From assembly GCA_947564735.1 (NCBI GenBank), contig CANOEC010000024.1:1-59767 (forward strand): DNA of 59,767 nucleotides, in the 5' to 3' direction. Shown in pieces: positions 15,715 through 54,149 of the stretch. The translations under genes and the position numbers were made by a program. The notes below the pieces were generated by a model that was given only the letters and a program-made list of their open reading frames with translations, was not told the origin of the DNA and did not search any database. The stretch comes from an uncultured Lachnospiraceae bacterium. Lineage in GTDB: Bacteria; Bacillota; Clostridia; Lachnospirales; Lachnospiraceae. Numbering within the stretch: the stretch's first letter is position 1; each line of letters starts with the position of its first letter.

Positions 15715-15818
15715 TTATCAGTATTAACGTTTTTTGACACAAATACGAAGCTATACAGGAAACCGCCACACAAAATATTGTGCTTTTTCATATTTTTTTC
15801 TATATTATACGCTATATA

Positions 15819-15847
15819 TTGACAATTTATCTGTCCTATCCTATACT
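15819..15847 (+). promoter_or_regulatory. Near-consensus sigma-A promoter for the ImmA-like gene
   Basis: TTGACA (15819-15824) is followed after 17 bases by TATACT (15842-15847), with the predicted start of transcription about 20 bases before the ATG at 15875. It is one of the strongest promoters in the window and gives a very short leader. Confidence 0.75.
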
Positions 15848-15874
15848 GATAATAAGTATGGGAGGCTGTTAGTA

Positions 15875-23314: not shown

Positions 23315-23401
23315 GTTGTATCTCCCTTACGAAAACCTTTCCCATAATGCACTCGATTATGATTCAGTATACCATAATAAATATTAAAAAGCATTAGGAT
23401 T

Positions 23402-24895: not shown

Positions 24896-24950
24896 CTCCA
24901 TATCTCCTCATATGTCCTTTCCCTATGCCGTTACTATGACATGTCTATAA

Positions 24951-24986
24951 AATAAGCAGAACCCCTACTCCTAAGCTCTGCCTATT
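24951..24986 (-). terminator. Weak hairpin after the thiamine-diphosphate enzyme gene
   Basis: An imperfect stem pairs aataagcagaa with ctctgcctatt across a 14-base loop, followed on the minus strand by ttattttata. It may reduce read-through from the thiamine-diphosphate enzyme gene into the AT-rich membrane protein gene. Confidence 0.35.
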
Positions 24987-25006
24987 ATAATCTGTTATTT
25001 TATATT

Positions 25007-26830
25007 CTACCTCAACTTATTCCTCTCGTACTCTTCTCTCGGCAAAAACGGGTACATGTCATCAATTTCCGGTGACACGATTCTTCCATCCGACAGTATT
25101 TTGGACGATAACTTGGGTTCAAAATTCTGCTCCGGGTCAACCACTACCTCACATATGACCGGACCATCCATACCTAATACCTCCCGCGTTTTCGCGGAAA
25201 TATCTTCCAGCACATCTATTTTTACATAAGGGATATCATATGCATACGCAATTCGGTCCATGTCTGGAAAGCTCAACCCATTCCCATCACAAACGCCCAC
25301 TAAAGGCGGTTCAAAAAGATTCGTCTGCGTTTGTCTGATGGAATGATATCCGTTATTATTTAATATGAATATCTTGAGATTCAACTTATTATATACTACC
25401 GTCTGCAATTCCTGAATATTCATCTGAAAACTGCCATCGCCGTCTATACAGATAACTCTTCGTCCTTGCTCCGCCACGGCGCAGCCAACTGCCGCTGGAA
25501 ATCCGTATCCCATCGCCGCACAGCCGGAATTGGTAAACAGACGCTGTGATTTCTTCACCTGCATCGCTTGAAAAGTAACAACACAGGCGCTGCCGTTACC
25601 GCATATGACTTTATCTCCTTCTGCAAGATTTGCAGAAAACTCATGAATAAATATATACGGATTAATCGGGCTTTTCTTCTCGTAATAAGAGGACAACACC
25701 GCGGGATATTTCTCATTAATCTCCTTACACCATTGCAGCCATTTTGCATGTTCTCCTGCATCCAGCTTTCTGACATTAATGTCACACATCACATCAGCGA
25801 CATCCGCATGTATCTTCATATCGACACCGACTGTCGGTTTATTCAATTCCGCCTCATCTATATCCACTACAATCTTATATGCGTTCTTCGCAAACTCTTT
25901 ATAATTGTAACTAATCTGCCGGATGTTCAGCCGACACCCCAGTACCAACAACACATCGCTGTTCTGAACGACAAAATTGCCACCTCTTGTACCTACACTC
26001 CCCGGTCTTCCGCAATAAAGCGGATGTTCATCCCATAACAGATCATGCGCATTCCACGCAGTCACTACCGGAATCTGCAGACAATCAACACATTTCAAAA
26101 ACTCCTCATAGGCTCCTGACAGTCTTACTCCTGTTCCTGCCAGAATCACCGGTCTTTTTGCTTTTTTTATCTTCTCGACTATCTGCTCCGTCAGCCGTCT
26201 GTCATACGCCGGATTCTCACATACATCTATCATTTCACTGCCATGCATCGTTTCCGCAGTCTCTTCCGCCGCTAAAAACCCCCGCAATTCCCTCGTTTCT
26301 ACAACTGATGCCTGCACATCCACCGGAACATCCAGCCATACGGGACCTTTCCTGCCATGATTACACAGATACCACGCCTTCTCCAGATGATATCTGATTT
26401 CTGTCGGTTCTGTGATCATATGGGCATACTTTGTCATGCCTCGCACACAATCCACAATCTGGAATTCCTGATCGCCAAGCTGTCTAAGCGGTACAGACGT
26501 AGACCACGTAGTAGTTTCCCTTTTCACCTGTCCCGAAATGACAAACATCGGAATCGAATCCTGCCATCCGCCCAATACTCCGGTAATGGCGTTCGTACCG
26601 CCGGGACCGGATGTTACACATACTGCCGCCACCTTCCCTGTCAGTCTGGCATACCCTTCTGCTGCAATTGCACATGCCTGTTCATGATGATTATAAGTAC
26701 AGTGTAATCGTTCATGATGCCCGATTGCATCATTCAAATGCATCGCCCCACCGCCTGTAACGGTAAATACATCCGTCACGCCGTGTTCAGACAAAAATTG
26801 TGCTATATAATTTGATACTTTAATTTTCAT
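25007..26830 (-). CDS. Thiamine-diphosphate carboligase, acetolactate synthase-like
   Basis: A 607-residue protein with the three domains of the acetolactate synthase family. Glu50 in NHHEQACAIAAEGYAR is the cofactor-activating Glu. The central domain contains RPVILAGTGVRLSGA. The C-terminal domain has the diphosphate motif GDGSF (from about 464) ending in NNNGYHS about 27 residues later. The ATG at 26830 fits the family start; the frame opens 21 codons earlier. Beside RfbF/G/H genes it resembles YerE, which adds a two-carbon unit from pyruvate to CDP-3,6-dideoxy-4-ketoglucose. A role in branched-chain amino acid synthesis is unlikely in this operon. The donor keto acid is not known. Confidence 0.85.
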   Translation of the reverse strand: MKIKVSNYIAQFLSEHGVTDVFTVTGGGAMHLNDAIGHHERLHCTYNHHEQACAIAAEGYARLTGKVAAVCVTSGPGGTNAITGVLGGWQDSIPMFVISGQVKRETTTWSTSVPLRQLGDQEFQIVDCVRGMTKYAHMITEPTEIRYHLEKAWYLCNHGRKGPVWLDVPVDVQASVVETRELRGFLAAEETAETMHGSEMIDVCENPAYDRRLTEQIVEKIKKAKRPVILAGTGVRLSGAYEEFLKCVDCLQIPVVTAWNAHDLLWDEHPLYCGRPGSVGTRGGNFVVQNSDVLLVLGCRLNIRQISYNYKEFAKNAYKIVVDIDEAELNKPTVGVDMKIHADVADVMCDINVRKLDAGEHAKWLQWCKEINEKYPAVLSSYYEKKSPINPYIFIHEFSANLAEGDKVICGNGSACVVTFQAMQVKKSQRLFTNSGCAAMGYGFPAAVGCAVAEQGRRVICIDGDGSFQMNIQELQTVVYNKLNLKIFILNNNGYHSIRQTQTNLFEPPLVGVCDGNGLSFPDMDRIAYAYDIPYVKIDVLEDISAKTREVLGMDGPVICEVVVDPEQNFEPKLSSKILSDGRIVSPEIDDMYPFLPREEYERNKLR

Positions 26831-38767: not shown

Positions 38768-39877
38768 TTACTTCAATACATTCTCAAGCCACGTCTTCAT
38801 TCCGGTCTGATAGCATTTCCTGATAATCCGGAATACATCTCCATAGTCAAGCCGCCCCTGCGTCTCCATCTGCTCCAACAGAACCGTAAGCTGTGCCGTC
38901 AAATACGGGTTTGCCACGAAGTCATCCGGCTTGCTGTGCTCTGCATACGCCGTGATGTGCGGCAGACATAACGTCTCATTCATACCATACCCTCTGATAT
39001 CCTCCTCTATCAGAAGACTCGGAATCATACGGCTGACGCAGTAAATATGGGTATGAACGCGAAAACCGACATGCATGTCAATTTGGTTGAGTGCCTTAAA
39101 TTTCTCTGCATCACCGGATAAATCGACACAAGTGACACCATGCTCTTGCGCCCAATCTTTCAGCATCAGATTATAGTTCTTGGAATATTTCGTGACATAA
39201 CCGTCATTGAATGTCAGAAATACCTTTGCACCGGGAAACCGTCCCTGTAAAAATTCAATCAGCCCTTCTATCTGTGCCAACTTTTTACCATGGTCGTGTG
39301 CATTCTTCGTAAGTCCATGATTTGAGACCGCAATCGTTTTCACTTTTCTTCCGGCGAAACTGTCTTGAAAAACAGCGTCGTCTTCCGGCTTCTCCAGCAA
39401 TTCGAGGTTATACCACGCCGGACATCCAGCCATAATCACACCCTTGACGCCACTGTTACGAAGGATTGTGTCTACCGTCCAGTCTCTTGACGCAAGCTGT
39501 CCGCCCTGTTCCACTACTTTATTAAAGTAGGCAATCATCTCATCAGAATAAGGATACCCGTACAGCGTCGCATCTTCACCGTCCGCTCCATACAATCCGG
39601 TTCCCATATAATGAACCGGCGTCGTAATTTCATCAATATGCTGATAAAAAAAGCTTGTCCTTACATATGCTTCCGCAAACTGCGCACCCCCACCGCCAGT
39701 AACAATTGCATCGTATTTATTAAGTTCCTCAATTTGGAACTGGGCATCATTATCCAGACTTAATTCAACAGCAGCTTCCGGATAAGTTTTTTTTAACATC
39801 CTGACCATCCTGTCATAAATCAGAAAATCTCCACCATTACTATATGGTCTTCCGGCAATCAAAATTTTTTTCATCAC
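38768..39877 (-). CDS. Polysaccharide pyruvyl transferase family protein
   Basis: A 369-residue protein. KKILIAGRPYSNGGDFLI at the start, DAIVTGGGGAQF, SRDWTVDTILRNSG and the late HVGFRVHTHIYCVSRMIPSLLIEEDIRG stretch (about residues 280-305) match the pyruvyltransferase family (CsaB/WcaK type). These enzymes put a pyruvate ketal on a sugar; some members have other roles. Start: GTG at 39877 or ATG at 39874, with AAAGGA upstream. A good promoter at 39927-39955 makes it the first gene of the long operon. It borders the island. Confidence 0.82.
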   Translation of the reverse strand: MMKKILIAGRPYSNGGDFLIYDRMVRMLKKTYPEAAVELSLDNDAQFQIEELNKYDAIVTGGGGAQFAEAYVRTSFFYQHIDEITTPVHYMGTGLYGADGEDATLYGYPYSDEMIAYFNKVVEQGGQLASRDWTVDTILRNSGVKGVIMAGCPAWYNLELLEKPEDDAVFQDSFAGRKVKTIAVSNHGLTKNAHDHGKKLAQIEGLIEFLQGRFPGAKVFLTFNDGYVTKYSKNYNLMLKDWAQEHGVTCVDLSGDAEKFKALNQIDMHVGFRVHTHIYCVSRMIPSLLIEEDIRGYGMNETLCLPHITAYAEHSKPDDFVANPYLTAQLTVLLEQMETQGRLDYGDVFRIIRKCYQTGMKTWLENVLK

Positions 39878-39955: not shown

Positions 39956-40110
39956 GTATGAGCAGTAAAGAAAAGCGTCGAATATCGAGTACAGATTACT
40001 CCTTTATCTGACGCCTTAGGTAAAACAATACGAATTTGTTAAAGTTCCATCCATATGCGGGCTGCCGCTTCATCATCCGTTTCCTTTTCTGCCTAGTTCT
40101 GTCCAACGGA

Positions 40111-43100
40111 CTACCGTAAGCTGTTTTGCTCCCCCTCCTTCGTCTGGAACTGCTCCCGCACCAGAAGTCTGTGTTTCTTAAGAAGTTCATACATATTTCT
40201 TATGAACTCCTCATATTCCTTTATAACCATCTGTTTCATCTGCTCCGAATCGCTTTCATTGGCATAGCGTTTTATCAATACATACCTTACGCACTTTTGA
40301 AACTGCGCGCTTTTCTTTATGGCATCCATAAGCTCTTGCAGAACATCTTCGTCCTTTTCAACGGCTCGTTTGAGTATATTTGCCGTATCAATATCAAACG
40401 GAGAGAGAATATACCCGACAATGCAGCAGTCTATGTACGATGTAAGATTCCTGCCGCGCCTAAAAGTAAGTGGATGACACGGGAGCGCCAGATGCGAATA
40501 TTTCTGATCCGGCTTAAATAATTTCTTCTGCATGGAAACAAACTCTATCTTTTTGGGCTGGTTCTCATACGGATCAAATACCTGCATATAATCTAACAGT
40601 CTTGCAACTTCATTCATGTTAACCGTATAAACCGTTTTCGTAGAACCGAAATGAAAACGGTATATCAGTTTCATGTCCCGTGTACTGCTTATGGAATCTA
40701 TTTTCACTAAATAATACGGAAAGTGACTGAGCGTCTCCATCCCGATTTTGAGCATGTTTCCACACGATACATCCGGTACATCCGTTTCAAACGCCACAAA
40801 CTTTCCGGGCAGTTCCAGTTCCGTCTGAAACGATTGGGCAGAATCCCACAAACGGGTAATCGGTATCTGCTCCGTACCTACAAAAAAATGCGCGGATTCC
40901 AGATATTCCTGATAATGACCGACAAATTTCCGGAACAACTGTTCCGGTACATTCTGGAAAAACAGCATAATCAGCGAAATCAATATCCCGGGGGTTTTCT
41001 CAAAACGGTTTTTTTCCTGCTTATCCGCATCCAGACTGCAATAATATGCACACCATTTTTCCAGAATGGGTCTGCGCACTTTCAACAGTTCTTCTTCCGA
41101 AATCGCATCTTCCCTGAGACGTTCCCTGTCGATGTTTAAATAGCGTGTAGGATTATCATCCAGAATCATGATATCCCACTCAATAAATCCTGCCCGAAGA
41201 TTTTCCGCATAATTTCTTGAATGGTAAATAGTCTCCGTATTTGAAATGGCATTAAATTTATAGCTGACATGATACAAATTCTGCGTGGCATCAGGAAGAA
41301 ATACCTGCTTTGCCTCTTCCCCTATTTTAATTGTGCACGGACGTATTTTCAAACAATAAAAGCGGCAATGTTTTTCATCCCAGAAATACGCATTGCTGTC
41401 GCTAAAGCGATAAGGTTTATCCTGACTTGTCAGAAGAAGGTTGAATGTCTCGTTTAAATCGATAAGAGAATATTTCCTCTTGTTTTTTGGATCAATGTAA
41501 GGATCAAAGTAGCTTCTGCGCAAAACATGGGGAACCGGTTTGATATCTTCCCCTTTTCTCACATGGATGATTTCCTGATATTTAATATTGAAATAATCGC
41601 ATTTTACGCTTCTTATCCTGTCTTTACATATCCTGCACATTTCTGCATAGACAATCTCGATATCCGATTCCGCATCGAATTCCGTATCATAGTAAAGGAA
41701 ACGCTTACTGCCTCCAGAATGTCCTGAAGACATCAGTTTCGCCGGGTCGATTGTAATTTTGGTGTTTGTCCCGGGCACTGTGTTATCAAAATAGATATCG
41801 TCTTCACAAGGCGGAATCTCTCTCACATCAATTTTACCCTTATTTCTGCCATAGGAGTAAAATGTGATCAGACGCTCCGGCTGATTGGGCAGACGCGTAT
41901 AGAACTCAATGCAATCGCTAAGCTGGAAAACCGATTGCAGCCCGATACCGAAAATACCGGAAGGTTTCATCCATGCGGGCATTTTCTTCATAAGCTTCTG
42001 CAGTCGTGGATTACTCTCCTTGTTGGAACCGATATTGGCAATATATTTCATATCCTCGAGAGAAATTCCAATCCCCTTGTCCTTTACGATAAGCAGAACC
42101 TTATTAATCTCCAAATCTTTGATGACTTCCACGGTGATATTATAATTAGAAAAAATCTTGTATCGGTCCTCCTTGGTCAAATCAGTTAATTTCAATCCAT
42201 TTTTCGCATTATCCTTGGAGAGCTTATAGTTCAGATAGCGGTTATGTATAATGTCTTCCCACATCTGGAGCAGGGATGCGTCAACGGCATTCTGAATTAC
42301 CTCCCGGATACCCACATACTTATCCCGATAAATACTGGTTCCTTTCAGAAGATTCATTACACGCTCCTGCGACATCTGCATTTGCATTTCCTTGTCTATA
42401 GAACAGTAAGGTTTATTGTCCACATAGATCTGAATGTCCGGATCCGCTGGCGGCGTGCGGAAATTCTCGGGCGCAACCTCATCCCAATGGGAGCGGAGCT
42501 GCCGGCATTCTTCCTGAAGGCTGTCCGTCCACTGACAGACAATACGCGCCGTCTCATATCCATCCTGTGACGAGTCGCAGTCAGCCCTGATGGCAATCTT
42601 TTTCTCGGTAATCAGAAGATGGGAAATCGACTCATGCTTCTGGTAATGCAGCCGAGATAATCTTGGAATCATCGACTGGTTTTTGACAGCTTCATGCACA
42701 AACCAGAGCGGAAACCTGTCATTGTCAATGTCAAGTAAATCGCCTAACCTCAACATTGCGGCGATGAACCGTGGGTGGAAATCATCGTTGATAATTCCAG
42801 TGATGCCGTCCGCCAAGGGAGACAACTGAAACAAACTGTGAAAATCCTTACCATGGCACATACATATCTCGGCAATCCCTTCCGAGCCGCACAGGAACCG
42901 CGCCTTTAAGTGGCTTTCAAATAACCCCTTAAAATCAGTATTTAAGTCAATCACTTTCAGCCAGTGATCTGAACGAAGATATAACTGGATTGCAAGCGAA
43001 ATCGACCAATAGATATCCTGCAGCGGAATAGAAGCCTTCTCCTGCGACAAATATTTCATAAGATTTTTTACCGCCGCCTCGTCCTCTTTTTCCAAAGAGG

Positions 43101-43494
43101 AAAGTTCCCTCGCCTGCTTTCTCAAGAAATTTTCAAACTGATTGCTGCCGAGGATATCATAAATCTTATTGTAAGAATATGCCATTCCGTAATCATGTGC
43201 GTACGCACAGATTAACAGCATAAAAGTATCGGTGGGCGAAAGCGCACAGATACGTTCCGCTCCAAGAAATCTCTCCACGGCATGGATGACTGACCGTGAG
43301 TGGCTTGCATCATGCAGACTATAATTTGCAAAGGTACTTCGAGACGTAAGCATTCTGTCCTCAAGACGTTTCTTGAGAAGCTCATACAGACTATACAGTT
43401 CTTTGATAGAATTATCATTTTGCGACTGGAGATCTCTGAAATGGCTTTCAAGACTCATCGAAGTCTTGTAAATATTTATTTTGGTTTCAATCAT
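40111..43494 (-). CDS. HD domain and GHKL (Hsp90-like) ATPase protein
   Basis: A 1127-residue cytoplasmic protein. N-terminal HD-type phosphohydrolase region (about 50-300): HDASHS and CAYAHDYG supply the metal His/Asp residues, with the late RLGDLLDIDNDRFP stretch. A GHKL ATPase follows: N-box EVIQNAVDA (about 398-406), DKGIG (472-476) and SGIFGIGLQSVF (512-523). Residues 560-1127 show no motif I know. The HD plus Hsp90-like ATPase combination occurs in predicted nucleotide-sensing conflict proteins. GGAGG lies 6 bases before the ATG at 43494. It is downstream of a SLATT-like membrane protein (47-bp gap), so the two likely form one unit: ATP-driven sensor plus membrane effector (inference). 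Confidence 0.8.
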   Translation of the reverse strand: MIETKINIYKTSMSLESHFRDLQSQNDNSIKELYSLYELLKKRLEDRMLTSRSTFANYSLHDASHSRSVIHAVERFLGAERICALSPTDTFMLLICAYAHDYGMAYSYNKIYDILGSNQFENFLRKQARELSSLEKEDEAAVKNLMKYLSQEKASIPLQDIYWSISLAIQLYLRSDHWLKVIDLNTDFKGLFESHLKARFLCGSEGIAEICMCHGKDFHSLFQLSPLADGITGIINDDFHPRFIAAMLRLGDLLDIDNDRFPLWFVHEAVKNQSMIPRLSRLHYQKHESISHLLITEKKIAIRADCDSSQDGYETARIVCQWTDSLQEECRQLRSHWDEVAPENFRTPPADPDIQIYVDNKPYCSIDKEMQMQMSQERVMNLLKGTSIYRDKYVGIREVIQNAVDASLLQMWEDIIHNRYLNYKLSKDNAKNGLKLTDLTKEDRYKIFSNYNITVEVIKDLEINKVLLIVKDKGIGISLEDMKYIANIGSNKESNPRLQKLMKKMPAWMKPSGIFGIGLQSVFQLSDCIEFYTRLPNQPERLITFYSYGRNKGKIDVREIPPCEDDIYFDNTVPGTNTKITIDPAKLMSSGHSGGSKRFLYYDTEFDAESDIEIVYAEMCRICKDRIRSVKCDYFNIKYQEIIHVRKGEDIKPVPHVLRRSYFDPYIDPKNKRKYSLIDLNETFNLLLTSQDKPYRFSDSNAYFWDEKHCRFYCLKIRPCTIKIGEEAKQVFLPDATQNLYHVSYKFNAISNTETIYHSRNYAENLRAGFIEWDIMILDDNPTRYLNIDRERLREDAISEEELLKVRRPILEKWCAYYCSLDADKQEKNRFEKTPGILISLIMLFFQNVPEQLFRKFVGHYQEYLESAHFFVGTEQIPITRLWDSAQSFQTELELPGKFVAFETDVPDVSCGNMLKIGMETLSHFPYYLVKIDSISSTRDMKLIYRFHFGSTKTVYTVNMNEVARLLDYMQVFDPYENQPKKIEFVSMQKKLFKPDQKYSHLALPCHPLTFRRGRNLTSYIDCCIVGYILSPFDIDTANILKRAVEKDEDVLQELMDAIKKSAQFQKCVRYVLIKRYANESDSEQMKQMVIKEYEEFIRNMYELLKKHRLLVREQFQTKEGEQNSLR

Positions 43495-43541
43495 AGACAC
43501 CCTCCTCATCCGGAAACTTAATATTATGAAACTGTCCGATG

Positions 43542-44030
43542 CTATTTCCCATCGCTGCCATCTTTATCATTTTCTATTTCAGCCCATCTGTCGTTTTCAT
43601 TTGCTCTGATTTCGGTAATCCTTTTCACAAACAAAATATCTCTTTCTTCTCTTTTATATATTTCCGCCCCTTGAATATAAAGCGCCGTCTCGCTCTTGAT
43701 ATTTTCTGCTGCAATACGATAGGCAATTCTTTTGTCGTGAAGCTTCGAAAATGCTTTGGCAGATGCCGCAAGTGTACCTGACACCGCCGTAAGTAACTGA
43801 CCTGCCACACAGTTGGTCTGCACACACTGGTTAAGCACTACAAGAATCGACGGCACTATAAGCGTCACCGCATTCAAGGCATACTCAAACAGCCTGTATC
43901 TACCTGCCTTTATTACATACCATTGCAGTGCATTGTTGACCAGCTCCCTCGTATGGACATCTTCTATTGCATTTACTAATTGTTCTATGTAATCCCACTC
44001 TACTTTGCTTGCCAAATATCTTCTCTTCAT
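43542..44030 (-). CDS. SLATT/DUF4231-like two-helix membrane protein
   Basis: A 162-residue protein. A basic N-terminal helix ends in RYRLFEYALNAVTLIVP, two membrane helices follow (about 45-65 and 70-92), then a long charged helix with AYRIAAENIKSETALY and DRWAEIE. This order (a W/Y-x-x-R-rich helix, two helices, and a helix with an AExxK pattern) matches SLATT-superfamily proteins such as DUF4231. These are proposed to form membrane pores as effectors in nucleotide-dependent conflict systems. It is the first gene of the left-hand unit, transcribed from the divergent promoter. The family call is by pattern only, without a profile search. Confidence 0.62.
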   Translation of the reverse strand: MKRRYLASKVEWDYIEQLVNAIEDVHTRELVNNALQWYVIKAGRYRLFEYALNAVTLIVPSILVVLNQCVQTNCVAGQLLTAVSGTLAASAKAFSKLHDKRIAYRIAAENIKSETALYIQGAEIYKREERDILFVKRITEIRANENDRWAEIENDKDGSDGK

Positions 44031-44090
44031 GTTTGTTCTCGCTTCCTTTCTGCGTTCGCCTTCATTATATTAAATACTGTTCACCTAAAT

Positions 44091-44119
44091 ATTATACCCC
44101 AATAAACTACATGCATCAA
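44091..44119 (-). promoter_or_regulatory. Leftward promoter of the SLATT/HD-ATPase unit
   Basis: On the minus strand TTGATG (44119-44114) and TATAAT (44096-44091) are spaced by 17 bases, about 60 bases before the SLATT-like start at 44030. It lies back to back with a rightward promoter 45 bases away. Confidence 0.6.
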
Positions 44120-44163
44120 TTATCTATATAAATAATTATGTATGATTAATTCTGAATTTTTAC

Positions 44164-44192
44164 TTGCAAATTTTCTGAATATTAATTATTAT
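44164..44192 (+). promoter_or_regulatory. Rightward promoter of the Ig-like/LamG-like unit
   Basis: TTGCAA (44164-44169) and TATTAT (44187-44192) are spaced by 17 bases and lie about 48 bases before the ATG at 44240. Together with the leftward promoter it fills the 209-bp AT-rich divergent region, so both halves of the island could be controlled at one place. Confidence 0.5.
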
Positions 44193-44239
44193 TTTAGTAC
44201 TACATTTTAAGTAGAAAAATCAAAAGGAGAATACACAAT

Positions 44240-45250
44240 ATGATAAACCAGCACCCCTCTATTCTTGACGAATCCCTGCCAATCCTCATTCGCGAAAGCC
44301 TCAGTGACCATGGAACCCAGAAACACACAAACCAGTCCCCTGACATTGTCATAGTAAAATTCGAACTTACTAATCCTCTAAAAGATCTTACCTCCAATTA
44401 CGACAAGGAAGATCCCAGCAAAGACGGAGATGGCAGCGGCAATATGTATATTTACGTGCGGTTTAAAAATACTTCCTGCGAAACAATAAATGGATTCTAT
44501 ATCCACTTGTACCGCAATCATCTCGGTCTCTATAATGACCCAAAGGACTGGACAAAATACGAAATGAAGACCACATCCAAACAATCCGTATATATCGAAT
44601 CCCTTAAACCGGGAAGCATTGGCGTGACAGAGCCTTTCATTTACGACAGCAGCCAGCTTGGAGCACATCCTAACTGTTTTGTAGCCGTTGCAACCCGCGA
44701 CAAAGACCCTGACTATTCTTCCATTAATTCGTTTGAAAGATATGTCAAATGGATTGACAAGCCAAATGTCGCCGCCCGGAATGTCTGTGTATACCCACGC
44801 TCTGTCCGAAATATGTCATCGCGTATATACTTTAAAAATCCTCACACCGATCGTGAGGCGCTGCTGTCATTTTATATTAAAGTACATGAAAAAAATACAT
44901 CGTCGGGAATCCAATACGGAATATCACACCAAGAACTCAATATTAATGTCGCAAAGACATATACTGTCGGTGCCTATGACTCAAGTTTTATTTCCTATGT
45001 CGTTACGATTCCCGCCGGATATTCAAGCAGCCTTCTCCTTTGGTATCAGGCATTAGAGGACGACCATGTAGACATACAAGGCACCTATTTGGTATATGAG
45101 GATTCAGAACAGGAACATGCCCTCTTTGACCGCTACGGCATTAACTTAAGGGAAAATTTCAACAATATTCTTGAATCAATACCCGCTACTGCGAATCCTC
45201 CAATGCGTGCGATTGTACTCGGCGGCTGCAGGATAAAATATAACGTTTAG
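44240..45250 (+). CDS. Unrecognised protein with two probable beta-sandwich domains
   Basis: A 336-residue protein with no signal peptide and no membrane helix. It seems to hold two Ig/Fn3-like beta-rich domains. The first (about 34-150) contains MYIYVRFKNTSCETINGFY and IESLKPGSIGVTEPF. The second (about 172-280) starts NVAARNVCVYPRSV, and contains RIYFKNPHTDREALLSFYIKV. The two halves share the theme of a strand followed by Lys-Asn-x-Thr. A short tail ends in GGCRIKYNV. AGGAGA lies 9 bases before the ATG. The large LamG-like gene follows after 31 bases, so the two probably act together. Function unknown. Confidence 0.65.
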   Translation: MINQHPSILDESLPILIRESLSDHGTQKHTNQSPDIVIVKFELTNPLKDLTSNYDKEDPSKDGDGSGNMYIYVRFKNTSCETINGFYIHLYRNHLGLYNDPKDWTKYEMKTTSKQSVYIESLKPGSIGVTEPFIYDSSQLGAHPNCFVAVATRDKDPDYSSINSFERYVKWIDKPNVAARNVCVYPRSVRNMSSRIYFKNPHTDREALLSFYIKVHEKNTSSGIQYGISHQELNINVAKTYTVGAYDSSFISYVVTIPAGYSSSLLLWYQALEDDHVDIQGTYLVYEDSEQEHALFDRYGINLRENFNNILESIPATANPPMRAIVLGGCRIKYNV

Positions 45251-45281
45251 ACATACATCTTTGAATGAGGAAAGGAACACT

Positions 45282-48200
45282 ATGAATTTCAACGCATTTT
45301 ACACACTCTGCTGTACACAGAACGGGTATGCCCAGATTCCATGGATTACCCCTTCCGATAGCCATTATTCAGTATGCATCCGTTTTTTGCCGGATACTAT
45401 CACGACATGCGGGACGCTCTTATCCTTTGGTTCCGATTTTCATATCGGCATCTTTGCCGGTCATATACAACTAGATGAAAACAGCCCTGCTTCCACATCA
45501 GATAATATGATACTGCCGCGCTGTCAAAACACTGTAACCGTAATCTGTAATGGCACAAGCTTATTGGTTTATTGTAACGGCACCCCCATTATACAACAGA
45601 GCATGCCCTCCGGTCTCAAACAAATAAATTATCTAAGAGTCGGCGAAGCTTTATCCGGCGTTTGTATCAATCAGGTTACAATATTCCATCGGATTCTTAC
45701 ACAATCGGAAATACAAGCCAGTCAAGTGAAAAATTTTTCCGATTATTACAGGCAAATTGATTTTACATCAACTTCTATTCCTGCAGATATCACCCTACAG
45801 CAGTGTCGCATCGAGAACTGTGTCTATGCGCTTGACTGCCGCAAAGGCGGATTTACTATGCCTTATGTGCATTTTCCAAAAAAATATACCTTAAATTTTT
45901 CCGTCTATCTCTTTAAACAGAGAGAGTCAGAACTTACTTTGTTCAAATCTCCCGCTATATGTATCAAACTATACTGCCCCGGCTATGGTTCCGGCTCTCC
46001 TCATATCAAAATTGATTTCAATAGCAAAGAACATTCTTACACCCCTCATGCCATTAAAACAGAACAATGGGCAAATCTGACTGTCGTATTCAGCGATTCA
46101 TGCATAAGCGTCTACTTTAATGGAAACCACCAAATTGACAGCGATTATGTTCCTTCTCCCACAACGGGCACTGTAGAATTTGGACAATTTGAAGGTTATC
46201 TGGACAACTGTGCGATTATAAACCGCGCACTGAATCAAAATGAAATAGCGGACTATATGAATCAGCCGCCCAATGTGTTTGCGAAAAATATGTTATATCT
46301 TTTTAATTTTTCTGATAAACTTTGGCAGGAAAGCTGTTACGGAACAGCATTGACTTCTTCCGGTGCAGAAATTACTCTCATTACGGGAACCAACGCAACC
46401 ATCCGTACGGACAGGAGCAGACAGGCTCCGCAAAGCAGCCGGATCTACAGCGATTTCGTCAACTGGCAGATTAACCTGATTCTTCGTCTGTTGGTCTGCT
46501 GGATTCACGAGCAACTCAGTATCTATCCCAACAAGGGCGTACAGACGGACTGCGATCCTTGGAAAATTGACGTCAGTTTACACCATTTTATACATAAAGA
46601 GATTCTCTCCATGAAAGAAGCGCAGGACATTCTATGTCATTATGACAATATCACTGCCAATAAACTGCTCGCCCTGATTCAGGCAATGAAACAGAATGGA
46701 ACCCTTAAAAAGCTGATGGACTATTTATATCAGGAAGATGACGCGCAGACCCCCGTTTCGGATATCCTCCTTGCACTGCTTGCCGCCGCAGCGTTTCTCG
46801 CCGCGTTACTTGCAGCGCTTGGTAAGGTAGTTACGGGCATAGGTCCGATTCCCAGACCGCCCAAAGCACCGCAGGATGATTCTGATTACGATGATGATGA
46901 CGATGACAATGAAAAAAAGAAAAAAACATATGTTTCTATCAGACAGACCGCGCCTAAAAGCCGCCTGCACATAGAACTTGAACACAAAGACATCTCGCAG
47001 GACAATGAAGAAACAACTGTCTTATTCATGCACGGCGCCTCTTCAGCAGACAACGTCATAGAGACAACCCTTACCTACAAAGGAGATGGCGGGGACTTTG
47101 TTGTTTATGCGGAAAACCAAAATGGCAGGATGATTCCCTCCGCTCAAAAATCCATCTCATTCAAAGGGAACGCTCCTGCTCATATTTCACTTGACATACA
47201 GCTCCAAAATTTTCAGAATAGGTATGGTGACTGTACAGAGACAGTGCGCTGGCGCTGCGAATCCAAGGACGGCAGGCAGGAGCAGTTTCTCGGTGAGAAA
47301 ACCTATCATTTCTACATTCTGGAAAATGCCCCCTGCAAATTGTGGGGTAAGACAGTACACATAGAATGCCTCAAACTGTGCGCGGACTGCGCCGAATATG
47401 CCGGCGGCAAATCGGAAGGCTTCGTCTTAGACTTTGCCCGTTATCTCCGACAAGAGAATGGGAATACACAAAACAAATATATGGCGGTTCATCCATCCAC
47501 TGATGCAGGCTCTTTACAACCTTACCGAAAAACCTACTCCAAACCTCCCGTAGCGGGAAAGGCAGGATTTTCTTTTGATGCTGTCAATTTTGCCAAAGAT
47601 TATCGCCGTGGCAACCGTAATATTTCACATGACGACCTTATATATGCAAATGTTATTTTTGGATATCTGAACGGACACAGTAATATGAGAGTTCTATGGA
47701 TTTCCTCTAATATGACATATTTGTCACAAATCACAGGTAAAAATGTTCTTGTAAATCTTCTTCTGAAAAATATTTCTGATGATGGATTTTCTGTCATGGA
47801 AGGCTGTCTGCACTGTGTGATGGCAGATTCTGATAATAAAATATATGACTCAAAGCTGAACTCTTATGGTCTTCCGTTCTCTGATAATATGACGCGAGCA
47901 ATAACCGGAACTGCTAATCCAAACTACTATCGAGAGAATAACTATGTTACCGGCTCTTACTGTGAAATCGTTTCTACAATCCCTGTGGACGCATGGGCAC
48001 TGGCTGATATGTCGAATTCTTCCCCTGACTCATGGTCGTTAACCGGTCTGTCTGTTTCTTCTCCTTACATAGACAGACTCCACAGATGGGACGATTGGTC
48101 CGATGCTCCTTCCGTCGGCTTGGTAAGACCCGTGGGTGGTGGCAGATACGAACCTTGCGGGCGGACAAACGACGATTCATCCGTATGGCATTATGTCCGT

Positions 48201-48956
48201 ACCCGCGACAGAGAGCATGTACCTCCTGCATTCAACACGGTCTGCCACAGCATCAGTTCCCATGAAATCGATGATGCCATTGCCCGTATCTGCACCGGAC
48301 ATCAAGCGGAGCAATTACAGACTCTTATAGATGCCCTATACCCTGCGGTGGCTCCTTTGATTGACATAACCGCTGATTATCACCGGCTTACTTTGCGAAT
48401 GATGGCAACGCTTCAAAGATGTCTCCTGCATAGAAATGACTATACCGACGTAGTCATCAACCATTTTTGCCGTCTTGCAGCAAATTCACCTGCCAACCTC
48501 CGGCTGGGAATGGGAGACTGGAACAGCGCGATTGGCGCAAACTTTGACCCCGAGTCATGGTTCTATTGTTTTCACCTCAATGACGCAGTCGTTATCAGCA
48601 ATTACGCCATTGATGAGGAGCGTGGAAACAGAGAATTACATCAAATATTAGTAGAACGGTATGGTATTAATACTCCCATTCCTATAAACAACCAACAGGG
48701 ATTTTACCTGCCGAATCCCGCCGACGGCATTCGGATTCAGAAGATGCTTATATTAGAACAACCCGTAAGCATCGTCATGAAATGTATTCAGAATTTTGGA
48801 CCTGTATTCTATCCACTGATTTACAGTTCCAGCAATCACTTTCGTATGCGAGCCGAGAGAGATGAATATATCAATCTTCCCAAAACGGTCTTTCCCGACA
48901 TACACATCTATTATCGTTCTCCTGATGCGCCTTACCGATGGATTGAACTATATTAA
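45282..48956 (+). CDS. Giant LamG-like protein with a central membrane helix
   Basis: A 1224-residue protein without a signal peptide. Two LamG/concanavalin-like lectin domains are suggested at about 5-155 (YCNGTPIIQQSMPSGLKQIN and ILTQSEIQA) and 185-325 (SVYFNGNHQIDSDYVP and ALNQNEIADYM). A helical region with one Ala/Leu-rich membrane segment (about 494-518) follows, then an Asp-rich linker (about 531-545) before KKKK. The last 670 residues include two Cys-rich stretches and no known motif. AAAGGA lies before the ATG at 45282. It could be a membrane-tethered sugar-binding protein, with unknown topology. No homologue is recognised. Confidence 0.6.
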   Translation: MNFNAFYTLCCTQNGYAQIPWITPSDSHYSVCIRFLPDTITTCGTLLSFGSDFHIGIFAGHIQLDENSPASTSDNMILPRCQNTVTVICNGTSLLVYCNGTPIIQQSMPSGLKQINYLRVGEALSGVCINQVTIFHRILTQSEIQASQVKNFSDYYRQIDFTSTSIPADITLQQCRIENCVYALDCRKGGFTMPYVHFPKKYTLNFSVYLFKQRESELTLFKSPAICIKLYCPGYGSGSPHIKIDFNSKEHSYTPHAIKTEQWANLTVVFSDSCISVYFNGNHQIDSDYVPSPTTGTVEFGQFEGYLDNCAIINRALNQNEIADYMNQPPNVFAKNMLYLFNFSDKLWQESCYGTALTSSGAEITLITGTNATIRTDRSRQAPQSSRIYSDFVNWQINLILRLLVCWIHEQLSIYPNKGVQTDCDPWKIDVSLHHFIHKEILSMKEAQDILCHYDNITANKLLALIQAMKQNGTLKKLMDYLYQEDDAQTPVSDILLALLAAAAFLAALLAALGKVVTGIGPIPRPPKAPQDDSDYDDDDDDNEKKKKTYVSIRQTAPKSRLHIELEHKDISQDNEETTVLFMHGASSADNVIETTLTYKGDGGDFVVYAENQNGRMIPSAQKSISFKGNAPAHISLDIQLQNFQNRYGDCTETVRWRCESKDGRQEQFLGEKTYHFYILENAPCKLWGKTVHIECLKLCADCAEYAGGKSEGFVLDFARYLRQENGNTQNKYMAVHPSTDAGSLQPYRKTYSKPPVAGKAGFSFDAVNFAKDYRRGNRNISHDDLIYANVIFGYLNGHSNMRVLWISSNMTYLSQITGKNVLVNLLLKNISDDGFSVMEGCLHCVMADSDNKIYDSKLNSYGLPFSDNMTRAITGTANPNYYRENNYVTGSYCEIVSTIPVDAWALADMSNSSPDSWSLTGLSVSSPYIDRLHRWDDWSDAPSVGLVRPVGGGRYEPCGRTNDDSSVWHYVRTRDREHVPPAFNTVCHSISSHEIDDAIARICTGHQAEQLQTLIDALYPAVAPLIDITADYHRLTLRMMATLQRCLLHRNDYTDVVINHFCRLAANSPANLRLGMGDWNSAIGANFDPESWFYCFHLNDAVVISNYAIDEERGNRELHQILVERYGINTPIPINNQQGFYLPNPADGIRIQKMLILEQPVSIVMKCIQNFGPVFYPLIYSSSNHFRMRAERDEYINLPKTVFPDIHIYYRSPDAPYRWIELY

Positions 48957-48970
48957 ACACGCAAAATATT

Positions 48971-49009
48971 CAGCAAAAACGACTCCATCTGCAGGAGTCG
49001 TTTTTGCTG
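48971..49009. terminator. Strong bidirectional terminator
   Basis: A perfect 16-bp stem, cagcaaaaacgactcc (48971-48986) with its complement (48994-49009), encloses a 7-base loop. The arms carry A and T runs, so it works on both strands. It separates the LamG-like gene from the convergent metallopeptidase gene that stops at 49022. Confidence 0.85.
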
Positions 49010-49021
49010 TTCCCTTTAATA

Positions 49022-50386
49022 TTATATTTCTCCGACACGTACCTCATAAATCATTCTTTCATGCATTTTATTAACGATGCAGCTTTTTCCACACAAAAAC
49101 AGATGCTCCATCAACTCTGTATCATATAAATGCCGTTCAATATATTTCCACACCTGAACTACTCCGTTATAATATATAAGATCTTTATGATTAGGCAAGT
49201 CACCAGTTCCCCTAAAGGTACGCTGCACAGAATCAAAACAGCGCCCTGCCGGCTCCCCTCCCGTAAGATGTTCAAGGCGAAGCTGGATTTCATATACTTC
49301 CCTAAAATTTTTGCCGAGTATGGACGCCAGCCCGATACTTATATAATGCAAAAGACCAATATCTTCATATTGATGGTTGACTGCCTGATCCGCCGCTTTC
49401 GCAACTCCCTCCTCAAAAGCCTCATATCCCGGAAGCCCTTGAGAAAAGGCTTTTATCTCACAATCCTCATAAGGCAATGCACGAAGCGCATGGACACCTA
49501 ACTCGTGTATGATAATCGCTTTCAGTTCCTCCCTTGTATAGGCGCCTCTGCTGCGTTTCCCCGGAAAATAAATTTTCTTTTGTCTGCATTCCGTAGACGC
49601 CACTGCACCATCGGGAATCACTACGGCCTTCCACCCGGTTAAGTCCCCACATCTATCTGCTGCCGTATCTTCCCCAAGTTCTGAACTGATAATTTCATTT
49701 GTAATTGCACACGCGTCTTCTATTGAAAAGCTCTGTCGTCCGGGCGGAATATGCGATAAGAAACCAGCATAAAACTGTTCTATCACATAAGAAAACCAGT
49801 CTATTGTCTCCTCCTTTGGTCTGAAAATCCCGTTTGCAGAGTCAAGCAGAGGTCCAATCATTTCGAGCAATTCACCATACATTACTTTGTCTTCTTTTGA
49901 AAGACTTCTTACGGGGATTGCGGAAAGCTTGTCTCCTAAAGCAGCCCAGAATATATCCCCGTTCGGTTCTCCATACAACGCTGCATTGGTTTTTTGATGT
50001 TCTTTTACTGCTTTCTCTCTGCTGTCTGACGCCGAATGATTATAGAGATAATTCGCATATACAAACCGGTTCTTTTTCAGATTATACTCTAAACTTACCG
50101 CTGCCATGGTTCTTTTCTTTTCCGTGATTTCTAAGGATTCCAGTTCATTTTGTAGCGAAATAATTGCGTCAATATTCTTCTCAATCTGTCGGATATCCAT
50201 GTGTCCATAACTATTTCGCGGTTTGAGGAGCTCATTATTTGCAAGAAATTCATCTTTTGCACCCGGATTTGTATTGTTGAGCACATCTATGACATCTATG
50301 TCAGTTTCATTCATAATTCTAACAATCGCTGCCCACTCCATTTCGCCTCCTGTTCTGTAAAACAAATCTTTCCGGCTATCGTACAT
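49022..50386 (-). CDS. DUF1704 (MATCAP-like) metallopeptidase
   Basis: A 454-residue protein. The zinc motif is HELGVHA (His294, Glu295, His299; HExxxH), with a later EEGVAKA (325-331) in place of the family's QEGLA. ALYGEPNGDIF (136-146) is another mark of DUF1704, whose eukaryotic members (MATCAP) remove C-terminal tyrosine from tubulin. All expected catalytic residues are seen, so it should be an active peptidase; the substrate is unknown. GGAGG lies 6 bases before the ATG at 50386, which overlaps the TPR gene stop, so the two are translated together. A carboxypeptidase that modifies the partner or is unleashed by it is one idea. Confidence 0.78.
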   Translation of the reverse strand: MYDSRKDLFYRTGGEMEWAAIVRIMNETDIDVIDVLNNTNPGAKDEFLANNELLKPRNSYGHMDIRQIEKNIDAIISLQNELESLEITEKKRTMAAVSLEYNLKKNRFVYANYLYNHSASDSREKAVKEHQKTNAALYGEPNGDIFWAALGDKLSAIPVRSLSKEDKVMYGELLEMIGPLLDSANGIFRPKEETIDWFSYVIEQFYAGFLSHIPPGRQSFSIEDACAITNEIISSELGEDTAADRCGDLTGWKAVVIPDGAVASTECRQKKIYFPGKRSRGAYTREELKAIIIHELGVHALRALPYEDCEIKAFSQGLPGYEAFEEGVAKAADQAVNHQYEDIGLLHYISIGLASILGKNFREVYEIQLRLEHLTGGEPAGRCFDSVQRTFRGTGDLPNHKDLIYYNGVVQVWKYIERHLYDTELMEHLFLCGKSCIVNKMHERMIYEVRVGEI

Positions 50387-50387
50387 A

Positions 50388-53300
50388 CTAATCCTCCATG
50401 TCCTGCATCCTCTCCTGCAGCTTTGCCAAATCCGCCTCTGCCTCCTCAAGTTTCGATTTATAAACCTTCGGACACTGTTTCACTAAATAGCTCCATCCCT
50501 TCACTGCCTCTTCATAGTATTTTTCCGCTTCAGGATACTTTCTGAGGCGTTCGCTTAAAAGACTGGCAAAACTGCTATAAATCTCTGATATTTTATCCAT
50601 ATCAAATCCTTCATTTTCTTTGGAATAGTCTTTGCATTTCCTGCAGGCTTCTTCCATTTTTTCTTCTGCATCCCTATAATATTGCATTTCAAAAAAAGAA
50701 TCACCCATTCGCGCCAGCAAGACGCCATACTTGCAATATGTTTCCGCCAGATTCAGTCCATATATCACCTTATCCTTCTTAGCCAGCTCTTCTCTTATTT
50801 CAGCCGCTTCCTTAAAATATCTTTCTGCATCCGAATATTTACTTTCGCCGGCGTCCATCAGGATAATCCCATACTCATGCAGAGTATTGGCAAGTTCTGC
50901 CCTATAAGATGGATTTGTCTGCGCAAGCTCTCTTCGTATAGTATATGCCTTCTCACATATCTCCTGCGCTTTCTTGTTATCTCCATTTAAGTTCAGCACT
51001 ACCGCATAATTGCTGTATACCAGCGCCAATGCCGGGCGGAAAGCAGATGGATTTCTCTTTGCATTTCTCATGCGTATCTCTATAGCTTTTTTGTAATACT
51101 TCTCCGCTTCCTGATATTCTCCCCTTTTTTTATACACGAACCCAAGATTATTATAGGTACTTGTGAGATCCATTAACGGCTGGTAATTATAAGAAGAACT
51201 CTTCTCCGCCAAACGCTCACGTATTTCTAGAGCCTCCCGGTGATACCCTATCGCCTTATCCAGCTGGTTCCTTCTATTTGCCAAAATCGCTCTTGTATTA
51301 TAGGCGTCCGCCAGTACCGGCTCGTATATTTCCGGATTGCGCTTTGCAAATCCTATTAAACTTTTACTACTTGTTTCTATTCTTTCTTCTGCACGTTTAA
51401 GCTGATTGGTTTTCCAAAGCAGTCTTGTCAAATCACTAAACACTTTAGCACGTAGTTCTTCGTTCTTACAAGTACCCTTTTTCAAGATATCCAATGCGTC
51501 TCTGTAATTCTTTTCACCACTTTTATACTTTTTATCCCTATAATATAAATCACCCAGCAGCATTAACAGCTTGATTTTGTCCTCATCCGAGGCGTTCGCC
51601 GATAATCCATATAAGCATTTCAGTTCCTCGCCAACTTTAATACCTTCCTCGTACTTCCGCTGATTCAGTAAGAAACTTGCATATTCATACATCGTAACAT
51701 ATTCTATCTGCCATTCTTTAGATAGATTTATGATACGTTCATATATTTCAATAATTTCATTCTCCAGATCGCTGCTTATCCCCCTCGTCTTTAAATTGGA
51801 GATCAGTGTTCTCTGGGCTGACACATATTGTCTCAATAGTTCCTTTTTGTCCTTCATCCACTTTTCTAAGTCGGCAATGTCCTGATTCCACTCTTGACTG
51901 CGCAGAATCTCTTCCGCCTTTCCATAGCTGCCATATTCAATGACATCTTCAATCGCCTCCTCTTCTCTTCTATGCATGCTGCTTTTGTCCTGAACTTTGC
52001 CGCTCAACAGTTCCAGATTATCCCAGATATCCTTTTCCATTTTTACAATAATCTCTTCCTGCTCCTTCAGTTCCTCTCCCAGCAGTTCCAGATTGTTTTT
52101 CTCTTCCGCACTTTTGTAAGCGTCATAAATATCTCCAGCATCTTCATATTGTTTCTGTAAATCATCCCTCTTTCTACATGCCTCTTCAAAATACATATTA
52201 TTCTTAAACTGCAGAATAGAAGCTGTCGAAAAATTGACTTTCGGCGCCACACATCTTAAATTTTGTAAAATATCTACTTTCACCCGGTTAATATCCTTAA
52301 ACCCAAGGGGTAGACCATTGAAATCCTCGTTGTACCTTTTTTGCAATTCCTCTCTGCCGTTATCGCCAGCCTGTACTATTTCGGCGTCAGACAATGTTTT
52401 AAAACACACGCGCAAGCGTGCGGCTTCTACATCATGTCCTTGATTGGAATAGTGCCGGTATGCCTGCTCATAGGTTTCCTGCATCCATTGTTCTACCGTA
52501 GTGCCAACCAGAATATAACAATATTTACACTGCTGAACATCCTGTAACCCTTCACCAATATGGCACTGTAATTTTAAATGGACTTCATTCTGACTGTGAT
52601 TCTGTTCTTCTATAAACTCCTGCAGACTATTGATATCATCTTGAAACTCCTCCGGCGAAGCTGCGAGGCATATCGCAATCTCATCCGGTAAAATTTCCTC
52701 TATGTCATCTGCGCCGTGTTGCGTTGCATCCAGCCGCTCTGTATTCTCCTGTGCAGCTTCCTTCCCTTCCGGTCTATGTACTGCCTGTCCTTCCATGCTG
52801 CCTTCCTTCTCCTTATTGCCTACAATGTATGGAAGCATTTGGTCCACTGCATTTTGCACATTATCTACTTTTCTTTCTATACGCTCTTCATGCGCTAAGA
52901 TATCGCTGCTCTTGCCATCTATTCTTTTTAAAAATTCTATACACGACTTTACACTCTCTTCCGTCGATTCATTCCATGCTTTTGCAACAACAAACAGCCC
53001 CTTTTTCAAATCGTTTTCATACTCTTGATAGATACTTCGTTCACTACCCTCGCAATACTTGCACCATAATACATCAGCCAGCTCCATATTATCATAATGG
53101 CATTGACTGCGTATTTCATCCGTAATTTTTCCTGCAATCCTGGCAAGGAAAATCTTTATTTCTTTAATTACAACATCGACATGCTTTTCTGAAACGCCTT
53201 CTGACAACATGTGCTCTCTGGACATGGCTTTCTTTAATTTAAGGCTTTCGCCCGCAATATACTCTTCGAGCTTATCAATGTTCTGTCTGGGAACCTTTTC

Positions 53301-53390
53301 TTTCAGCAAAGTAAATGTTTCCAGTAAGATTTTAACTGTGGGCATGCCGCTTACGACAGCACAGCTAATAAGCAAAAATAATACATACAT
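50388..53390 (-). CDS. TPR protein with a TIR/DUF4062-like domain and N-terminal membrane helix
   Basis: A 1000-residue protein. A hydrophobic N-terminal segment (about 2-16) is followed by a helical region with several Cys. A domain near 236-378 has AICLAASPEEFQDDINSL, a later CKYCYILVGTTVEQWMQET and LRVCFKTLS: the strand-helix pattern of TIR-like DUF4062 domains fused to TPRs. Coiled coil follows (about 400-560). From 590 to 970 come roughly nine TPRs (for example YNNLGFVYKKRGEYQEAEKY). AAGGAG precedes the ATG at 53390, 17 codons inside the open frame. It is coupled to the metallopeptidase gene. The TPRs would sense or bind a partner. NADase activity by the TIR-like part is a guess. Confidence 0.68.
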   Translation of the reverse strand: MYVLFLLISCAVVSGMPTVKILLETFTLLKEKVPRQNIDKLEEYIAGESLKLKKAMSREHMLSEGVSEKHVDVVIKEIKIFLARIAGKITDEIRSQCHYDNMELADVLWCKYCEGSERSIYQEYENDLKKGLFVVAKAWNESTEESVKSCIEFLKRIDGKSSDILAHEERIERKVDNVQNAVDQMLPYIVGNKEKEGSMEGQAVHRPEGKEAAQENTERLDATQHGADDIEEILPDEIAICLAASPEEFQDDINSLQEFIEEQNHSQNEVHLKLQCHIGEGLQDVQQCKYCYILVGTTVEQWMQETYEQAYRHYSNQGHDVEAARLRVCFKTLSDAEIVQAGDNGREELQKRYNEDFNGLPLGFKDINRVKVDILQNLRCVAPKVNFSTASILQFKNNMYFEEACRKRDDLQKQYEDAGDIYDAYKSAEEKNNLELLGEELKEQEEIIVKMEKDIWDNLELLSGKVQDKSSMHRREEEAIEDVIEYGSYGKAEEILRSQEWNQDIADLEKWMKDKKELLRQYVSAQRTLISNLKTRGISSDLENEIIEIYERIINLSKEWQIEYVTMYEYASFLLNQRKYEEGIKVGEELKCLYGLSANASDEDKIKLLMLLGDLYYRDKKYKSGEKNYRDALDILKKGTCKNEELRAKVFSDLTRLLWKTNQLKRAEERIETSSKSLIGFAKRNPEIYEPVLADAYNTRAILANRRNQLDKAIGYHREALEIRERLAEKSSSYNYQPLMDLTSTYNNLGFVYKKRGEYQEAEKYYKKAIEIRMRNAKRNPSAFRPALALVYSNYAVVLNLNGDNKKAQEICEKAYTIRRELAQTNPSYRAELANTLHEYGIILMDAGESKYSDAERYFKEAAEIREELAKKDKVIYGLNLAETYCKYGVLLARMGDSFFEMQYYRDAEEKMEEACRKCKDYSKENEGFDMDKISEIYSSFASLLSERLRKYPEAEKYYEEAVKGWSYLVKQCPKVYKSKLEEAEADLAKLQERMQDMED

Positions 53391-53548
53391 AGACGTTTTC
53401 TCCTTCGTAGTTAAAATTTCTCGAAAGCTTCCGCGGGACATCCAAATATTTTTTTAGTTTATTTGACTAGACTAATATCAAAAATTTTCTTTTGCTTGTC
53501 ATACAGCCCATCATCTAAACTGAAATATGCTGCATACAATTATCCCCC

Positions 53549-54142
53549 TCAATACATCTCCAAATGATTCAGCCCGCACAAATGCTTGTAGAACACGCTC
53601 ACCATCAAATGGTCAAAAATCATATGCACATCCTCTGTCACCTGCATACTGTTCACGGGAACATGGAGCGATACATCCGCTTCTTCCATCAGCTTACCAC
53701 CCTTGATACCGGTCAAACCTATCACTTTGTTGCCCTGTTCTTTGGCATACCTAACCGCATTCATAATATTAGCTGAGTTTCCACTCCCGGACAATGCAAT
53801 CACCAAATCGCCTTCCCGGATTCTTCCCTGTAGCTGATAACGGAATACCTCTTCAAACCCCATGTCATTTGCAATTGCCATCAGAGTCGCCGTATCATTG
53901 TTCAGACAGACAAACTCGAACTTTGTCTCCAAAGTCTCCGACAATCCTTTATTGAAATCATTCTGATAATGGGACGCTGTTGCAGAGCTGCCTCCATTAC
54001 CAAAAATATATACCTTTTTGCGGTTTCTGTAAGCCTCCTCAATCAACTGCATCGCCTCGTTCAATGCCTCTATATCCAGCTTACTCAAAACCTCTCTTTC
54101 AAGCTCAATATACTCTGTGATATCTTTTCTGTAATCCATCAT
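53549..54142 (-). CDS. gmhA: Sedoheptulose-7-phosphate isomerase
   Basis: About 197 residues, one SIS domain. FGNGGSSATASHYQND near 50-65 and LSGSGNSANI near 116-125 are the sugar-phosphate binding loops of GmhA, with TEDVHMIFDHLM late in the sequence carrying metal and acid residues. It converts sedoheptulose-7-phosphate to D-glycero-D-manno-heptose-7-phosphate. The GAGG site is 5 bases before the ATG at 54142; an adjacent ATG (54139) or a GTG (54148) is possible. It follows the fused HddC-GmhB gene with little or no gap, and HddA lies further upstream, so the pathway is complete. Confidence 0.93.
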   Translation of the reverse strand: MMDYRKDITEYIELEREVLSKLDIEALNEAMQLIEEAYRNRKKVYIFGNGGSSATASHYQNDFNKGLSETLETKFEFVCLNNDTATLMAIANDMGFEEVFRYQLQGRIREGDLVIALSGSGNSANIMNAVRYAKEQGNKVIGLTGIKGGKLMEEADVSLHVPVNSMQVTEDVHMIFDHLMVSVFYKHLCGLNHLEMY

Positions 54143-54149
54143 GAACACC

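Follow-up and report, generated by a model that had tools for sequence, protein, structure and literature searches.

MATCAP peptidases are mainly known from tubulin processing in eukaryotes, and the LamG domain is a fold of the sugar-binding type. In the account of DRT10 given in PMC12632851, a SLATT protein is essential to phage defence, and SLATT proteins are predicted to form pores (PMC12632851, PMC7159879). For bacterial NACHT proteins, an effector domain at the N-terminus is reported in PMC12169576. Relatives of several of these families lie side by side in a polysaccharide cluster of an uncultured Lachnospiraceae bacterium (GenBank assembly GCA_947564735.1, contig CANOEC010000024.1; the 59,767 nt analyzed are called the window), where six large open reading frames, A to F, occupy positions 40111-53441 and give family matches for all genes except C. 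Adjacency in this one genome had suggested a single system, and the initial annotation proposed a six-gene conflict island. Comparison with relatives splits the block into three. The reading that we favor, and hold to be reasonably probable on the sequence comparisons described below, is that of a variable slot in the polysaccharide cluster filled by three independent units, A-B, C-D and E-F, with mechanisms for A-B and E-F as proposed in this work.

Variable slot and separate inheritance of its units

The related genome G311 (locus L018) has the same flanks and the same E-F genes, while a different stretch of 11.8 kb stands in place of A to D. The replaced part of the window spans 40042-49031, as the blastn alignments end at window position 40041 (L018 3173) and start again at 49032 (L018 14987). 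Nucleotide identity is 78% in the left flank up to 40041 and, from 49032 onwards, 73% in E-F and 83% in the right flank. Because G311 has other genes between the same flanks, the A-D block is replaceable and E-F is retained, and by this alignment the site is a variable slot: relatives that share the flanks differ in what it contains.

The G311 insert contains a gene that narrowly misses the DUF2971 threshold (21.3 bits, cut-off 22), two genes of 169 and 2111 aa without Pfam matches (L018 4346-11200), two genes related to SGNH- and MBOAT-type genes of the window and, next to E, an M78-type gene with 92% identity to a gene of the window (15734-16288). The latter is on the plus strand, encodes an M78/IrrE-type peptidase and adjoins a family-2 glycosyltransferase gene. 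The 169-aa gene was judged receiver-like by eye, and in locus L097 a small gene like it stands before an HD-CE ATPase gene.

The distribution of the units was analyzed in a sample of 78 genomes of the genus, the window's own included. D was detected in four of them at E up to 1e-8 (the window's genome, G319, G351 and G366), and in all three others a homologue of C was located directly upstream of D (loci L022, L023 and L036). E was found in three genomes (the window's, G311 and G351), with F directly upstream in both of the others, so that the operon order is kept in 3/3. Six genomes had A at E up to 1e-20, with full-length coverage in G302 alone (60% identity); on the 4,615-nt contig of G302 no B was found beside A by tblastn at E up to 10, and a different gene lies upstream. 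Seven neighbourhoods of C-D or E-F were compared (L005, L018, L020, L022, L023, L036 and L089), none of which contained another of the units, and a homologue of C, D, E or F occurred in 0/33 other HD-CE loci examined. Since homologues occur apart among the 78 genomes and G311 keeps E-F without A-D, we consider C-D, E-F and A to be independent; the comparison shows that they are inherited separately. The dispersal of homologues as unlinked single genes, which the initial annotation had named as fatal to its proposal, was seen in part: the genes are unlinked as pairs and, A excepted, not as single genes.

One six-gene conflict system, parts of which decayed or were lost in relatives, would account for the compactness of the block, its divergent gap and shared hairpin, and the presence of both C-D and E-F in G351. 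However, the two pairs of G351 are on different contigs (C-D on contig 10, E-F on contig 14), G311 has E-F alone and no other genome was found to combine the units. The divergent control region and convergent terminator that had been thought to couple two units are present in the window, but again no second genome was found in which they join these units. A single system is strongly disfavored by these comparisons, and we regard it as very improbable.

Candidate mechanisms of A-B and E-F

A (40111-43509, minus strand, 1132 aa) matched HD-CE (PF24391) with 126.8 bits at a cut-off of 27. The H, HD and D residues of HD-CE, used as the criterion for metal binding, are present in A; among eight aligned sequences H and HD were found in seven (G324 is gapped there) and D in all eight. 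The N-box, DxGxG and FGxG motifs, which we take to be those of GHKL/HSP90-like ATPases, were likewise present in 8/8. The ATPase profiles stayed below their curated cut-offs (PF13589 15.7 bits, cut-off 25; HSP90 models of NCBIfam 40.7 and 33.2, cut-offs 455 and 371), so that of the HD plus GHKL ATPase architecture first assigned to A the HD part passes its profile and the ATPase part is visible as motifs. Besides the G302 protein, full-length relatives of A were found in G163 (43% identity) and G183 (45%). B (43542-44030, minus strand, 162 aa), located 32 nt upstream of A, exceeded the cut-offs of SLATT_1 in NCBIfam (NF033634, 56.6 bits, cut-off 41) and of DUF4231 (PF14015, 38.6, cut-off 24.7), in line with its first description as SLATT-like. 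A SLATT protein should have two transmembrane segments; the hydropathy profile of B has two peaks that overlap (residues 47-65 and 57-75).

HD-CE was detected in 28/299 genomes of the family Lachnospiraceae. The comparison covered 34 loci with HD-CE or A-like genes, the window included, for some of which the flank was limited to 1.5 kb; 30/34 had a blastp match to A. Neighbouring genes were SLATT in four loci (the window, L040, L060 and L096), RTas1808 in six, RTas1299-like in five and M78/CapP-like in three, which are recurrence counts of lower quality, since the neighbour profiles were built from member loci and only L107 (RTas1808) lay outside the building set. PADLOC, which is independent of these built profiles, returned RTas1808 in five loci (5.5e-69 to 5.2e-111), RTas1299 (9.2e-31), CapP (3e-8 to 5e-13) and SLATT (3.9e-6 and 3.9e-4). 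In L060 of G276 the HD-CE gene overlaps a SLATT gene, the product of which is 26% identical to B (E 1.6e-16).

In this family, HD-CE loci repeatedly include SLATT, DRT-associated or CapP-like genes, which makes a role of A-B in conflict likely. In the proposed mechanism, A would sense an invader or a stress via its HD-CE/HSP90-like ATPase part and, when triggered, would release the SLATT protein B, which would permeabilise the membrane and stop the cell. That A gates B is what we infer from the HD-CE/SLATT overlap in L060, the neighbour recurrence, the role of SLATT in DRT10 and the predicted pores. An HD-CE/HSP90/SLATT system was not found in searches of the open-licence literature.

Three further observations concern these loci. 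The L060 genes form an operon (786-2937) in which the gene ends overlap; it comprises a STAS-like and an RsbW-like ATPase-like gene, both labelled by eye, followed by HD-CE and SLATT. In L094, L096, L103, L105, L040 and L107, HD-CE is accompanied by RTas1808 and some RTas1299-like genes, which PADLOC classes with reverse-transcriptase systems. The window's genome contains a second HD-CE/HSP90-like gene (L006 2872-6078), which has no SLATT neighbour.

E (49022-50386, minus strand), the ATG of which lies 1 nt past the stop of F, matched MATCAP (PF08014) with 51.1 bits at a cut-off of 27 (46.2 for the L020 copy), in line with its first naming as a DUF1704 peptidase. TIGR02421 (QEGLA) was matched at 8e-15 with 54.9 bits, far under its cut-off of 338.65. 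The family match is confined to the C-terminal third, and the zinc motif, HELGVH with FEEGVA, is invariant in three sequences. E is predicted to be a zinc metallopeptidase of the MATCAP/QEGLA type. F (50388-53441, minus strand) may instead start at an alternative ATG at 53390, where the initial annotation had ended the block. It matched TPR_12 with 96.9 bits and consists of an N-terminal domain, a middle part without family and C-terminal TPRs. Over its first 200 residues F matches a protein of 924 aa from another genus (G022; profile E 9e-21; blastp 36% over 103 aa), in which the F-type N-domain is followed by pentapeptide repeats and a NACHT domain (31.7 bits, cut-off 26.7). The G022 gene was not seen to have a homologue of E beside it, and no NACHT NTPase domain was matched in F by Pfam or NCBIfam. 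In a search of solved structures F matched TPR proteins only, and E gave no useful hit (best E-value 0.15).

F had been called a TIR-like TPR protein. The TPR families were recovered, whereas a TIR domain in the middle part was rejected: Pfam and NCBIfam gave no match, and hhalign against 19 TIR_2 domains gave a probability of 0.2 (E 0.29), compared with 99.9 for control halves and at least 97.2 for eight single-sequence controls.

With the F N-terminal part matched in 2/250 genomes of the family and E in 1/391 of the class (the window's own), the pair is rare; E was not found in viral contigs. As bacterial NACHT proteins are reported to have an effector domain at the N-terminus, F may carry an N-terminal effector or adaptor domain; its TPRs would then be the sensor, and E the partner peptidase. 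F, combining TPRs with an NLR-type N-terminal domain, would detect a trigger and switch on the zinc peptidase E, and activated E would cut a protein of the cell or of the phage. On this view a sensor would control a peptidase, and E-F may be an immune pair that has not been described; searches of the open-licence literature gave nothing on DUF1704/QEGLA combined with TPR in defence. Next to E-F in G351 (L020 83-4843) are a gene of the MBL type that resembles LmuA/RTasMBL/Avs1a, which counts in favor of this reading, and a gene of 1191 aa that Pfam does not match.

Of the conflict-type parts listed in the initial annotation, the HD-CE protein with HSP90-like ATPase motifs and the SLATT protein are retained, in a place that is variable and has other unusual genes in a relative. 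They are not parts of one system: A-B is likely, and E-F possibly, a conflict module, as judged from family matches and gene neighbourhoods. A more ambitious proposal is that E-F is an undescribed immune system of two genes, whose TPR protein with an NLR-type N-terminal domain senses infection and activates a zinc peptidase of the MATCAP/QEGLA type. A-B would be another such system, its HD-CE/HSP90-like ATPase gating a pore formed by SLATT, and the two would share one exchangeable slot of the surface-polysaccharide cluster. We put this forward tentatively, as less likely than not.

Several observations weigh against the variable slot with these mechanisms. The closest relative of A, in G302, has no B, which makes the A-B link weak, and 30/34 HD-CE loci are without SLATT, by a profile built from the four that have it. 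PADLOC gave no convincing specific match for A-F; apart from weak hits, F alone matched, with a generic TPR model (3e-9). Residues 20-38 of F are hydrophobic, a feature not needed in a plain cytosolic sensor, and E-F is known from three species only. The GC content of A-F (0.409-0.441) is inside the range of nine measured flanking genes (0.393-0.485), so that composition gives no sign of an island or of foreign origin. Finally, D and E occur together in two genomes (p = 0.0059) if the window's genome is counted and in one (p = 0.077) if it is not; the latter is a small-sample figure and is not read as linkage.

The C-D pair and the surrounding cluster

C (44240-45250, plus strand, 336 aa) had been described as Ig-like, for which Pfam, NCBIfam and PADLOC gave no match. 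D (plus strand, listed start TTG at 45261, ATG at 45282, end at 48956) is LamG-like as first described: Laminin_G_3 (PF13385) was matched with 46.2 bits at a cut-off of 27.6, the LamG matches lie in the N-terminal third, and lectin-like domains were matched among solved structures. D has one strong hydrophobic segment (residues 495-513), and its C-terminal half has conserved residues without a family match. D was detected in 2/299 genomes in the family scan and in 14/299 in the phylum scan (E up to 1e-4). Of these 14, the window's own genome aside, G886 alone matched along two long stretches; the remaining 12 matches were short and chiefly LamG. No D was found in plasmid and phage collections or in viral contigs.

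In the distant C-D pairs of G082 and G886 the upstream gene has a Hint-like extension. The C of the window lacks it and stops near the point at which the Hint begins in these relatives. The Hint scores are below cut-off (G886, PF05203 31.3 bits, cut-off 32.1; G082, PF14890 25.6, cut-off 35.8). That these upstream genes are homologous to C is suggested by their position and the Hint-like extension, blastp against C having given nothing at 1e-3.

A transglutaminase-like core was considered for the C-terminal half of D and is retained as a lead only: the best result was E 0.053 with a probability of 1.0, for the G886 copy alone (control 100), and the similarity of Transglut_core to D became weaker with more D sequences. 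In the G886 protein a Cys motif aligns with the expected transglutaminase place, at which the window's group has His or Tyr.

C-D is the third of the units and a rare one; it may bind sugar and be held in the membrane, but we commit it to no role. It could also be envisaged that C-D, and perhaps E-F, assemble, display or monitor the polysaccharide of the surrounding cluster, as the LamG fold and membrane segment of D, the location of the slot and the acyltransferase- and epimerase-type genes adjoining C-D in G319 would suggest. However, C-D lies beside replication genes in G351 and beside metabolic genes in G366 and G082 (both kinds recognised by eye), E-F of G351 lies outside any visible polysaccharide cluster, and neither C nor D has a signal-peptide-like N-terminus in a simple hydropathy scan; we consider such a surface role unlikely. 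The sparse occurrence of the pairs (3 to 4 of 78 genomes) at several different sites is also what would be expected of selfish or passenger cassettes, such as addiction-type modules, without benefit to the host. Yet the gene lists for the surroundings of C-D and E-F, which were not scanned systematically for such elements, showed no recognised integrase, transposase or toxin-antitoxin pair, and we give passenger cassettes a somewhat smaller chance than the surface role. The variable slot with independent units remains the reading that we prefer.

As the initial annotation stated, the six large or unusual genes lie between polysaccharide-type genes of one orientation, here the minus strand, and no sugar enzyme was matched among A-F in Pfam and NCBIfam profile searches. 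The left neighbour is a polysaccharide pyruvyl transferase gene (38768-39877, minus strand; PF04230 33.6 bits, cut-off 25.3), the right one a SIS-domain gene of the sugar isomerase type (53549-54148, minus strand; PF13580 74.1 bits), with 88% and 98% amino acid identity in G311, respectively. The minus-strand flanks further include genes for NeuB, a cytidylyltransferase, Epimerase_2, an epimerase, a GHMP kinase, an acyltransferase and glycosyltransferase 11. B-A run leftward and C-D rightward from a divergent gap of 209 nt (44031-44239), and F-E run leftward, converging on D at a terminator-like hairpin. Promoter-like matches are present in the gap on both strands (44119-44091 and 44164-44192); over the whole block such matches are near chance (39 vs 32.9, sd 5.8, in shuffles). 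The predicted convergent terminator proved real: the hairpin (48971-49009) has a perfect 16-bp stem, a 7-nt loop and a folding z-score of -7.93, and 0/200 shuffles were equally good. Rfam gave no match in the window. A low-GC stretch (0.32-0.34) was noted at 23001-25500, inside the polysaccharide cluster.

Relation to described systems

Two leads emerge from this locus. One is a bacterial MATCAP relative that forms a pair with an NLR-like TPR protein, the other a family of HD-CE/HSP90-like ATPases in gut Lachnospiraceae that neighbours SLATT, CapP-like and DRT-associated genes. If E-F does defend against phage, the MATCAP peptidase family would gain a bacterial immune branch. With the MATCAP/QEGLA peptidases (TIGR02421, PF08014) E shares the family match and the HELGVH and FEEGVA motifs, but it matches by its C-terminal third only, falls below the TIGR02421 cut-off and always adjoins F. 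With bacterial NACHT/STAND (NLR-related) proteins F shares the N-domain that heads the G022 NACHT-pentapeptide protein, whereas F itself has TPRs and no NACHT match.

Like other HD-CE/HSP90-like ATPase proteins (PF24391), A has an HD-CE match far above cut-off together with the ATPase motifs. It differs in that a separate SLATT gene adjoins it; elsewhere the neighbours are RTas1808, RTas1299-like or M78 genes, or no partner was recognised. DRT10, composed of the UG17 reverse transcriptase and a SLATT protein, resembles A-B in the SLATT protein as presumed membrane effector, in the terms of PMC12632851, and relatives of A adjoin DRT-associated gene families. In contrast to DRT10, no reverse transcriptase was matched among A-F, and the controlling protein here would be the HD-CE ATPase.

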